DNA of 42,068 nt. Source: Pelagibacteraceae bacterium AG-410-N23. Lineage in GTDB: Bacteria > Pseudomonadota > Alphaproteobacteria > Pelagibacterales > Pelagibacteraceae. Location of the stretch: positions 1-42,068 of the forward strand of contig QCKW01000008.1 of NCBI GenBank assembly GCA_003215055.1, read 5' to 3'. Each line of letters opens with the position of its first letter. The stretch's first letter is position 1. The notes under the pieces are model-generated. The model searched no databases and was not told the origin of the DNA. It saw nothing but the letters and a program-made list of their open reading frames with translations. The position numbers and the translations under genes are program-made. This document shows, piece by piece, positions 829 through 15,846 of the stretch.

Positions 829-2104
829 TTAGAATTGTTCGGACTCTGTTGAGCCATCCATTGCTGTCGTTGAGCTTTTCCCACTACTAATTGTATTAGA
901 AACAGCATCAAAATAAGAAGTACCAACTTCTCTTTGATGTTTTACACTAGTGTAACCATCTTTTTCACGAGCAAATTCTTGTTGTTGAATTCTTGAATAA
1001 GCAGTCATCCCTTCTTTTTTTGTATTTTTCTGCTAATTCAAAAATTGCAATATTTTGAGTATGAAAACCAGCAAGAGTTATAAATTGAAATTTATATCCC
1101 ATTTTACTTATTTTATTTTGAAAAGTGGCAATTTCATCGTCTGATAAATGTTTTTTCCAATTAAATGATGGAGAACAATTATAAGCCAATAGTTTTCCAG
1201 GAAATTTTTTGTGTATAGCATCCGCAAATTTTTTAGCCTCCTCTAAATTTGGAGTTGCAGTTTCACACCAAATTAAATCTGAATAAGGAGCATAAGCTAA
1301 ACCTCTAGAAATTGCTTGATCAATACCCGCTTTTACATAATAAAAACCTTCCGGAGATCTTTCACCAGTTAAAAATGCTTTATCATTATCATCATGATCG
1401 TTTGTAATTAGTTTTGCAGCATTTGCATCTGTTCTTGCTAATATTATCAATGGAACATTAGCAATATCAGCAGCCAATCTAGCTGCTTTTAAGTTTTTGA
1501 TCATTGTTCCAGTAGGTACAAGAACTTTTCCACCCATATGACCACATTTTTTTTCACTAGCTAATTGGTCTTCAAAGTGAACACCTGCTGCACCAGCTTT
1601 TATAAATTTTTTTGCTAGCTCGAATACATTTAATGGACCACCGAACCCAGCTTCACCATCTGCAATGATTGGCAGCATATAATCAACTTTATTTTCTTTT
1701 TTCATGTCTCCATCAATTATCTCCATATGTTGAATTTGATCAGCTCTTATTAAAGCATTATTCATTGATTCAACTAATTTTGGAGCACTATCATATGGAT
1801 ATAAAGATTGATCAGGATACATTTCACCAGCACTATTTGCATCTGCTGCAACTTGCCAGCCACTTAAGTAAATTGCTTTAAGGCCAGCTTTTGCATGTTG
1901 AACAGCGTGATTTCCAGATAGTGAACCGAGGGTATTTACATATGGCTCTGAATTTAGCAAATTCCATAATTTAATTGATTGATGTTTACATAAAGAGTAT
2001 TCAATTTTTAAAGAACCTCTTAATCTTTCCACTTCTTCTGGTGTATAATCTCTCTTAATCCCTGCAAATCTTTTCAAGTCGTATGAGATATTTTCTGCAC
2101 TCAT
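829..2104 (-). CDS. aceA: Isocitrate lyase, interrupted by a +1 frameshift in an A7 run
   Basis: Isocitrate lyase cleaves isocitrate to glyoxylate and succinate (glyoxylate bypass). Visible are the [11 protein letters not shown] metal/substrate stretch (about 146-156), the catalytic KKCGH loop (185-189, Cys187), and [12 protein letters not shown]. The open frame from the start ends early at 965 with an unrelated 16-residue tail. One base removed from a run of seven T at 1015-1021 (seven A in the mRNA) lets the reading continue as [14 protein letters not shown]..., through [20 protein letters not shown] to STESEQF and a TAA at 829-831, giving a normal 424-residue enzyme. All catalytic residues precede the shift; the lost C-terminal part is conserved in the family. 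The cause may be a sequencing or assembly error, a real mutation, or slippage at the A run. It is the second gene of an operon with the 53-aa ORF and lies opposite a RamB-type regulator. Confidence 0.9.
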
Positions 2105-2437: not shown

Positions 2438-3871
2438 ATGAGTCAATTAGATTTAAAAATTGGGCCAAAAATAAAGGCTTTTAGAAGACAATTAGGACTT
2501 CAGACTAATAAACTTGCTGAGGAATTGAGTATTTCTCCCAGCTATTTAAATCTCATTGAGGGAGGAAAAAGAAAAATAGATGGAGATCTTTTACTTAAAA
2601 TTTGTGAAAAATTAAATATTGAACTTTCTCACTTAACATCAAAAACTGATATAAATCTGGAAAATACTTTATCTGAAATTCTAGATGATAAATTGTTTGA
2701 AGACTTAGATATTTTAGGTCCTGAAGTTAAAGATTTAGTAAGTACCAATCCAAAAATTGGTAAAGCAATTGTAAGATTAGGTGATATTTTAAAACAGAAA
2801 GATCACGAACTTATAAATAAAATAGAGAAAATATCTGGAAAAATTGTAGATAATAGAAAGAATTCTTTTCCTGGAGAAGTTATTTCAGATTTCCTTCAAG
2901 AAAACAAAAATTATTTCCCAAAGTTAGAGGAGTTTGCAAATAAAGTTTTTGAAAAAGTACAAAAAAATAACCGAACAAGATATATAGCTCTTTGTGATTA
3001 TCTTAAATCAGAATATGGAATAACAGTAAAAGATGTTATTCCAGAAGAAAATAAACCTTTTTCAAAAATTTATAATAAAAACAAAAAAGAACTTTTTTTG
3101 AGTGACTACAGTTCATTAGAAACTAAAAAATTGCATGCAGCAGCCCAAATAGCACAAGAGGGTGCAAATAAAGAAATCGAAGAATATTTGTCTAAATTTA
3201 CTTTTCCCTCAGATGAGTCAAAAAAATTAAGTAAAGTTGCTTTACTTAATTACTGTGGAGCTGCAATTTTAATGCCATATAAACTTTTTCATTTTGAATG
3301 TAAAAAACTAAAATATGATTTAGAGTTGTTGCAAAATACTTTTGCAACATCTTTCGAACAAGTGGCGCATAGAGTAACTTGCTTGCAAGATCCAAAATTA
3401 CCTGGAATACCATTTCATTTTTTAAGAGTAGACATGGCTGGCAATATTTCTAAAAGATTTTCATTATCCGGGATTGAAATTCCAAGATATGGAGGTGCTT
3501 GCCCAAGATGGAATGTTTATTCTGCTTTGACAAGACCAGGTGTTATACAAGCTGCTGTTAGTAAAATGTCAAATGGAGAAAAATATGTTTGCATAGCAAG
3601 AACTGTGGAAAAGGGGATTGGAAGATTTGGCCAATCTAAAAGTATTTTATCAATTGGTTTAGGTTGTGAGGCAAAATACGCAAAAGATTTTGTTTATACA
3701 GAAAATATAAATGTAAATGATAAATCTACCGAAATACCAATAGGTGTGTCATGTAGAACCTGTGATAGATTAGATTGTTCACAAAGGGCATTTCCTCCAT
3801 TACATAAAAAATTTGATGTGGATATAAACACTCGAGGTGTTTCGGTATACGTAGGTGATAAAAATGATTAA
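2438..3871 (+). CDS. RamB/ScfR-type XRE-family regulator (short-chain fatty acyl-CoA regulator family)
   Basis: The N-terminal helix-turn-helix of XRE type (about residues 10-65, with LAEELSISPSYLNLIEGGKR) is followed by a long central region related to IrrE/ImmA-like folds and a C-terminal DUF2083 domain with GGACPRWN and a cysteine-rich CRTCDRLDCSQRAFPP near the end. This is the architecture of RamB, which in corynebacteria controls acetate and glyoxylate genes including aceA, and of related alpha-proteobacterial regulators of short-chain fatty acid use. The 477-residue length is normal. It is divergent from the aceA unit across an array of ATTTACAA boxes, which strongly suggests it controls that unit and itself. 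The last codons overlap the next small gene. Confidence 0.85.
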   Translation: MSQLDLKIGPKIKAFRRQLGLQTNKLAEELSISPSYLNLIEGGKRKIDGDLLLKICEKLNIELSHLTSKTDINLENTLSEILDDKLFEDLDILGPEVKDLVSTNPKIGKAIVRLGDILKQKDHELINKIEKISGKIVDNRKNSFPGEVISDFLQENKNYFPKLEEFANKVFEKVQKNNRTRYIALCDYLKSEYGITVKDVIPEENKPFSKIYNKNKKELFLSDYSSLETKKLHAAAQIAQEGANKEIEEYLSKFTFPSDESKKLSKVALLNYCGAAILMPYKLFHFECKKLKYDLELLQNTFATSFEQVAHRVTCLQDPKLPGIPFHFLRVDMAGNISKRFSLSGIEIPRYGGACPRWNVYSALTRPGVIQAAVSKMSNGEKYVCIARTVEKGIGRFGQSKSILSIGLGCEAKYAKDFVYTENINVNDKSTEIPIGVSCRTCDRLDCSQRAFPPLHKKFDVDINTRGVSVYVGDKND

Positions 3872-4028
3872 ATTTATAATCCCAGCTGTAATAATCTTTT
3901 TGATAGTTTTGTTCTGGGAAAAAATTAGTGAATTAATTTATAAAAAATTTAAAATTAAAATTAACTACATTGCAATTCTAATATTCTTAATGATCATTGG
4001 GGTGATATTGATTTTGCTATACAATTAA
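3864..4028 (+). CDS. 54-aa two-helix membrane protein
   Basis: A short ORF beginning at ATG 3864, inside the last codons of the regulator gene, and ending at TAA 4026-4028. It has two hydrophobic stretches (about residues 3-18 and 34-52) separated by a lysine-rich hinge (SELIYKKFKIKIN), as expected for a small two-pass inner-membrane protein. The 8-base overlap with the upstream stop suggests translational coupling. No family recognised; the next gene starts 4 bases downstream. Confidence 0.6.
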   Translation: MIKFIIPAVIIFLIVLFWEKISELIYKKFKIKINYIAILIFLMIIGVILILLYN

Positions 4029-13750: not shown

Positions 13751-14523
13751 TATAAGATATTCTTACTTTTTAAAATTAAACTTGGATTTTTAAAATCTTT
13801 TTTTCCATAAAAAATTTCATTTCCCTCAAAATCAGTAACTTTTCCACCAGCATGTTTTAGTATTGCATGACCAGCAGCTATATCCCATTCGCAAGCTCTT
13901 GGTTCAGCTACATATCCATCAAACTCTCCAGAAGCGATTACACAAAATTTTAACGAACTTTTCATTCTCACATATTCTTTAACATTTAACTCTTTGTGAA
14001 TTTTTTCAATTTCAGGTTTGATTTTTTTTGAATAAGAAACAAATTTAATCTTGTTTTTATCAAAATTATTTTTCTTATTTAGTTTAACTGGTTTTCCATC
14101 AATTAGTTCAAATGCAAAAGTATTTCCATAAGAATAAAACATTCTTTTTTTTGCTGGAGCATAAATTAAGCCTGCTACAGGTTGCTTATCAATTATAAGT
14201 CCAGCATTAATAGTGAATTCATCAAGACTATTTATATAATCGTAAGTTCCATCAATTGGATCTATTAACCAAAAATCATTTAGATTTTTTATTGATTTAT
14301 TATCTGAGGTTTCTTCTGAAACAATTGGAATATGAGGAGTTAATTCATTAATTTTTTTTGTAATAATTTTATTTACTTCTATATCACCATTACTTACGGG
14401 CGTATTGTCAGATTTAATTTCTTTTGTAAGACCACGATTTCTTAGTTCTAACGAAACTTTACCAGCATGTAAAAAAGTATCTATTAAACTTTCAACAGTT
14501 GTTTGTATATTAATTTTGGTCAT
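13750..14523 (-). CDS. cysQ: CysQ-like 3'(2'),5'-bisphosphate nucleotidase / inositol monophosphatase family
   Basis: Mg-dependent phosphatase that most likely hydrolyses 3'-phosphoadenosine 5'-phosphate to AMP. Motifs: PIVSEETSDN (about 80-89), WLIDPIDGTYDYIN (metal-binding DPIDGT) and CEWDIAAGHAILKHAGG. Length 257 fits CysQ (about 246-270) as well as general inositol monophosphatases; the DPIDGT context with EETSDN favours CysQ. It overlaps the DUF3553 gene by 14 bases and the 47-aa ORF by one base. Confidence 0.82.
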   Translation of the reverse strand: MTKINIQTTVESLIDTFLHAGKVSLELRNRGLTKEIKSDNTPVSNGDIEVNKIITKKINELTPHIPIVSEETSDNKSIKNLNDFWLIDPIDGTYDYINSLDEFTINAGLIIDKQPVAGLIYAPAKKRMFYSYGNTFAFELIDGKPVKLNKKNNFDKNKIKFVSYSKKIKPEIEKIHKELNVKEYVRMKSSLKFCVIASGEFDGYVAEPRACEWDIAAGHAILKHAGGKVTDFEGNEIFYGKKDFKNPSLILKSKNIL

Positions 14524-14727: not shown

Positions 14728-15846
14728 ATGAATAATGAATTAAATTCTATTGGACTAAACAAAAAGCCTACAGATACAACTGTTGTTGTAGCGATGTCTG
14801 GAGGAGTTGATTCATCAACGGTTGCAGGAATGATGAAAAAAGAGGGCTATAAAGTTATTGGTATTACTTTAAAGCTATATGATGATGGAAAAGAAGTAGC
14901 AGCTTCAAAACAATGTTGCTCTGGCCAAGATATAATGGATGCAAAACGTGTAGCTCAAAAATTAAATATTGACCATAAAATTTTATATTATCAAAATAAA
15001 TTCAAACAAGGTGTTATAGATAATTTTATTGAAAGTTATTCAAAAGGAGAAACACCAATACCTTGTGTTCAATGTAATCAAACAGTTAAATTTAAAGATT
15101 TACTTGAAGTGTCTAAAGATTTAAAGGCCGATGCAATGATAACTGGCCATTATGTTAAAAGTATCACCTCAGATAATCAAACTAGCATGTACAGAGCAAT
15201 TGATGAAAATAGAGATCAAAGCTATTTCTTATTTAATACAACAAAAGATCAATTGAATTATTTAAGATTTCCGCTCGGTGGATTATTAAAAAATGAAACG
15301 AGAGAAATTGCAAAAAATTTGAATTTGAATGTTGCAGATAAACCAGATAGTCAAGATATTTGCTTTGTACCAAATGGTGATTATGCATCTGTAATTCGAA
15401 AATTTAGACCTGAGTCTTTACAGAGAGGAAATATAAAAAACTTAGAGGGAAAAGTGATTGGTGTACATGATGGTATTATTAATTTTACAATTGGTCAGCG
15501 AAAAGGAATTAAAGTTTCAGACAGTGAAGCTTTGTATGTTCTTAAAATTGATTCTGAAAAGAATGAAATAATTGTTGGACCCAGAGAAAAATTAGGAAAA
15601 AAATCTATTTCATTAACAAATTTAAATTTATTAGAAGATAAATCAGTTTTTAATAATGAAATTTATGTAAAAGTAAGATCAACAGGAAAGCTTCTTGAAG
15701 CTAAAATTAATCTTCATCAATCCAATAGCGCAGATGTAAATTTAAAAGTTTCTGAAGATGGTATCTCGCCCGGTCAAGCTTGTGTTTTTTATAAAAGAGA
15801 TGATTTAGGTTATAAAGTTTTAGGTGGTGGATGGATTAAGAGCTAG
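14728..15846 (+). CDS. mnmA: tRNA-specific 2-thiouridylase MnmA
   Basis: ATP-dependent sulfur insertion at C2 of wobble U34 in tRNA Lys/Glu/Gln. From ATG 14728 the protein is 372 residues: PP-loop SGGVDSS at 24-30, catalytic Cys in [11 protein letters not shown], second Cys in [12 protein letters not shown], and C-terminal beta domains ([18 protein letters not shown]). The frame stays open back to 14608, but those 40 residues carry no family homology and lie antisense to the DUF3553 gene, so 14728 was chosen. The stop overlaps the convergent membrane protein gene by 11 bases. Confidence 0.93.

Follow-up and report, generated by a model that had tools for sequence, protein, structure and literature searches.

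An extra base in an A/T run splits the isocitrate lyase gene of a Pelagibacteraceae assembly, probably through a homopolymer error

The isocitrate lyase gene (aceA) of Pelagibacteraceae bacterium AG-410-N23 is situated on the minus strand at positions 965–2104 of the window, i.e., the whole stretch of 42,068 bp that was analysed (GenBank contig QCKW01000008.1), and appears there as a frameshifted open reading frame (ORF) of 379 amino acids, assigned by its match to the Pfam family ICL (PF00463) and by comparison with isocitrate lyases in the PDB. Read from 2104 to 965, it consists of 363 native residues, ending with FELAEKYKK, and 16 foreign ones. The mRNA possesses a run of seven A at 1015–1021 (T7 on the plus strand), as read directly from the sequence, and the last 61 native codons (EGMTAYSRI to STESEQF) lie at 829–1014 on the same strand in another frame, with the stop at 829. 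Without the insertion the enzyme would comprise 424 residues, 61 of which are lost through A7. PF00463 is matched in both frames, in the upstream one at 1361–2074 and 1013–1360 (197.5 and 132.3 bits) and in that of the tail at 832–1032 (31.4 bits), all scores exceeding the cut-off of 26 for membership in the family. These matches and the end of the ORF at 965 bear out the original prediction that one extra base breaks the frame and that removal of one A restores it down to STESEQF at 829; the predicted loss of the C-terminus stands as well, except that it amounts to 61 residues and not to 60.

The upstream ORF contains EKKCGHMGG and with it KKCGH, which we take to be the catalytic motif of isocitrate lyase. 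The tail aligns to the C-terminal ends of the solved isocitrate lyases in the PDB comparison, and according to structural work this C-terminal segment closes over the active site. As assembled, aceA does not carry this segment complete and in frame, its final 61 residues being out of frame, and the truncated product should be inactive.

Upstream of aceA, a divergently oriented gene with an open frame (2438–3871, plus strand) encodes a RamB-like regulator of acetate metabolism, its score against the RamB family NF038139 (363.6 bits) being under the curated cut-off of 700 for that family. Between the two genes, at 2349–2429, there are four TTTACAAA/TTTGTAAA sites (starts at 2349, 2399, 2413, and 2422); between 2 and 5 of them occur in each of 56 further loci whose upstream sequence is long enough. 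The same intergenic part of the window also contains, at 2165–2326 on the minus strand, an ORF of 53 residues that is highly conserved (matches in 93 of the 103 loci given) and matches no NCBIfam or Pfam family. Malate synthase, the other enzyme of the glyoxylate bypass, has an open frame in the same genome.

Concerning selection, only a handful of changes are specific to the aceA branch of this genome, and pairwise comparisons with eight relatives were used in their place. For the 63 codons starting at the site these gave pN values of 0.013–0.027 and pS values of 0.23–0.47, and for the body of the gene pN values of 0.017–0.047 and pS values of 0.50–0.61. Judged by these values, the tail is still evolving as a protein, and its low pN rules out an old pseudogene. 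The earlier statement that the gene shows no old decay is supported by pN and pS of the tail and by the upstream sites, which are present in the numbers usual for the relatives. The low pN of the tail, the kept upstream sites, and the open malate synthase gene are compatible with an error as well as with a mutation of very recent date.

For the comparison of the run, 109 loci outside the window were gathered by a DNA search and a protein search (best 80 matches kept), two collections that may overlap. In 103 of them aceA was alignable, and 101 covered the site; 98 of these 101 sequences are distinct, one being from Anoxybacillus and the rest from SAR11 relatives or relatives without a name. 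All of the 101 covering loci are one base shorter at the run; 51 of them have precisely A6 following the TAC/TAT codon, and none has A7. The comparison with other SAR11 aceA genes proposed along with the original prediction thus came out in its favour; the closest relative is 88% identical to the window in the DNA search, such that none of the covering loci belongs to the same strain. Furthermore, all 72 loci examined (L034–L107) have aceA in a single frame, two of them being cut by a contig end (L074 and L100), with L101 and L104 omitted as divergent. One covering locus (L063) fails the open-frame check, presumably through the start of its alignment; aceA is in one frame there, too.

To place the lesion among others of the assembly (36 contigs, 923 kb in total, 79.8% complete), 442 kb, made up of the window and 20 further stretches, were compared with the genes from 1.2 Mb of a closed relative (G012) at an identity cut-off of 50%, giving 346 matched genes and 339 kb of covered coding sequence. 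In five genes the frame is broken at an A/T run, in each case by an insertion of one base: aceA, rpoB (T9 for T8; L152, about 14795–14799), pheT (A9 for A8; L147, about 3973–4028), ddl (A10 for A9; L138, about 1574–1617), and a TauC-like ABC permease gene (T8 for T7; L140, about 1416–1471), whose match scores under the cut-off of its family. By length of the uninserted run, one frameshift occurred at length 6 (1220 A/T runs), one at 7 (649), two at 8 (329), and one at 9 (136); the A6 of aceA thus represents the length with the fewest frameshifts per run. A sixth frameshift row (R728) was dropped, since its shift is opposite and its ORF, beside rpoB, was judged spurious, and two more rows of R728 were dropped likewise. 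Five internal-stop rows were left uncounted (one in ddl, one at the match end in the gene after rpoB, R1058, apparently an ORF lying over ribosomal RNA, and two at match ends).

The relatives support these insertions to a varying degree. All covering relatives are shorter by one base, both at the rpoB site (25 of 25; 28 loci given) and at the permease site (15 of 15; 19 loci given). At the pheT site the lengths vary, with a difference of −1 in 12 of 28 rows and other values in the remainder, and likewise at the ddl site (−1 in 5 of 15 rows, no difference in 3, other values remaining), such that the insertions in pheT and ddl rest on the frames found and not on the run lengths of relatives. Family searches in the assembly (about 80% complete) revealed no second rpoB, pheT, or ddl over the cut-off, only the split gene; weaker matches to the ddl family fall in long open frames and are, by their look, presumably other ATP-grasp proteins. 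Cells die without the beta subunit of RNA polymerase, phenylalanyl-tRNA synthetase, or D-Ala-D-Ala ligase. The same lesion is therefore present in genes that cannot be lost, their insertions have to be errors or to be rescued, and the same cause suffices for aceA.

Run-associated frameshifts are also found in other SAR11 assemblies, with 4 in 509 kb and 1 in 290 kb of other loci, 2 in four further genomes (252 kb), and 1 in G012 (334 kb). The density in these samples is lower, determined with a stricter identity cut-off (60% vs. 50%). The frameshifts are located in L069, L085, L087, L097, L237, L305, and L321 and near 185570 in G012. Judged from the G012 counterparts, the affected genes include those for a CysS-like synthetase, a TldD/PmbA-like protease, a cyclopropane-synthase-like methyltransferase, a carbonic-anhydrase-like protein, and a nucleotidyltransferase; in L085, it is the regulator adjoining aceA that is frameshifted at a run. 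In G012, one of five frameshift rows was counted, in a gene of 361 amino acids that looks like mraY, while visual inspection excluded four as divergent or as start-region misfits and eight internal-stop rows were left uncounted. Across the samples taken, the census yields about 0.3 to 1.5 frameshifts for every 100 kb of coding sequence covered, and the density in the genome studied is ordinary. One further row, from G009, holds no run and was not counted: a short GC-rich inverted repeat interrupts a gene there (L312, about 14372–14414) in an otherwise AT-rich genome, and the repeat may represent either a small palindromic element or a chimera from amplification.

Each of the run-associated frameshifts in the SAR11 assemblies was read base by base, and 13 of 13 are insertions. 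Artificial changes were detected about equally in both directions (+1 in 215 of 266 trials, −1 in 198 of 257), such that detection does not cause the insertion-only pattern. No established technical cause that would bias the outcome towards insertions is known to us.

Of the three causes offered by the original prediction (an assembly error, a recent knock-out, or a slippery site), the splitting of rpoB, pheT, and ddl by +1 at A/T runs in the same assembly makes error the best supported. Most likely, the extra A was introduced at an A/T homopolymer by faulty amplification, sequencing, or assembly, and aceA is not broken in the organism. The run would have gained one A at one of these steps, and the living cell would have an intact aceA and a normal isocitrate lyase of 424 residues. 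From the contig pattern, the completeness, and the isolate codes of the neighbours, we infer that the genome was obtained by amplification from a single cell, the matches from the protein search being titled mostly with AG- or AH- isolate codes, which we take to be single-cell codes, and a share of them being labelled MAG. We likewise infer that the insertion was missing from the original cell. For a marine single-cell workflow, 3.0 indels per 100 kb are given on benchmark cultures (PMC6122165, PMC11247762), which, if applicable, would lead to about 10 in 339 kb. On the other side, with a completeness of about 80%, a second gene copy could sit in the missing part. WGA-X reads are described as containing deletions a little more often than those from the other amplification method (PMC5519541), which does not predict insertions. 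Among the titles listed in a literature search, none dealt directly with homopolymer errors of MDA.

A very recent, real +1 slippage mutation in the cell or its clone, knocking out isocitrate lyase and hence the glyoxylate bypass, is a rather unlikely, though possible, explanation that is not needed. The gene is known to be dispensable in many bacteria. A MutS_V match was found in 0 of 37 genomes of the same order, this one included (16 of them at least 90% complete), and in 11 of 14 controls; with no MutS found, real replication slippage in runs should be common. Equally, mutS and mutL are described as missing from the single-cell genomes of two deep-sea SAR11 subclades (PMC12374537). However, the identical lesion affects rpoB, pheT, and ddl of the same assembly, which are hardly real knock-outs, such that an error process at an adequate rate is needed already, and the extra base is missing from every other locus covering the site.

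It is very unlikely that SAR11, in which no MutS was found, truly carries +1 insertions at A/T runs in essential genes (rpoB, pheT, and ddl here, the CysS-like and mraY-like genes in relatives), with the polymerase or the ribosome often restoring the frame and aceA as a mild case. Slightly less credence still is given to a real A7 at which slippage of RNA polymerase restores the frame in part of the aceA messages, as in insect endosymbionts, where frameshifted genes at long poly(A) runs have 12–50% corrected transcripts (PMC5009743). A/T runs are numerous in this genome, and the aceA tail is under selection; however, the run is short and not conserved among the covering loci, and repair at A7 requires a one-base deletion in transcription, the rarer event in runs. 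Slippage in runs is described as mostly adding bases to the message, no restored frame being reported in that study (PMC5574713); it would thus mend missing bases and not extra ones. Rescue would accordingly favour −1 lesions, whereas all run-associated lesions observed are +1, and the earlier reading as a slippery site is disfavoured. A conserved programmed frameshift that regulates isocitrate lyase has nothing in its favour beyond the run itself and is rejected as next to impossible, as the extra base occurs in no other covering locus and aceA is in a single frame in all 72 loci checked for it.

With an error as the preferred explanation, A7 is a true reading of the assembled sequence but most likely no trait of the organism itself. 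In SAR11 assemblies, a frameshift at an A/T run can pass for a pathway loss, and in the present case the glyoxylate bypass should not be counted as lost; the census may serve as a rough yardstick for such frameshifts. Should the insertions turn out to be real, SAR11 would offer a free-living case for testing frame rescue in the absence of mismatch repair.

The situation found in aceA resembles homopolymer indels in single-cell (MDA or WGA-X) assemblies in that one-base changes at A/T runs are scattered over unrelated genes, including essential ones, and in that the frameshift density is of the same order as the published indel rate, whereas the present changes are insertions only and the single-cell origin is deduced. 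With the poly(A)-tract frameshifts of Buchnera and Blochmannia it shares a genome rich in A/T runs, a frameshift at poly(A), and a downstream frame under selection. Despite this similarity, there are some clear differences: the run in aceA is only A7, its base is extra and not missing, and it is present in one assembly only and known here from DNA alone.
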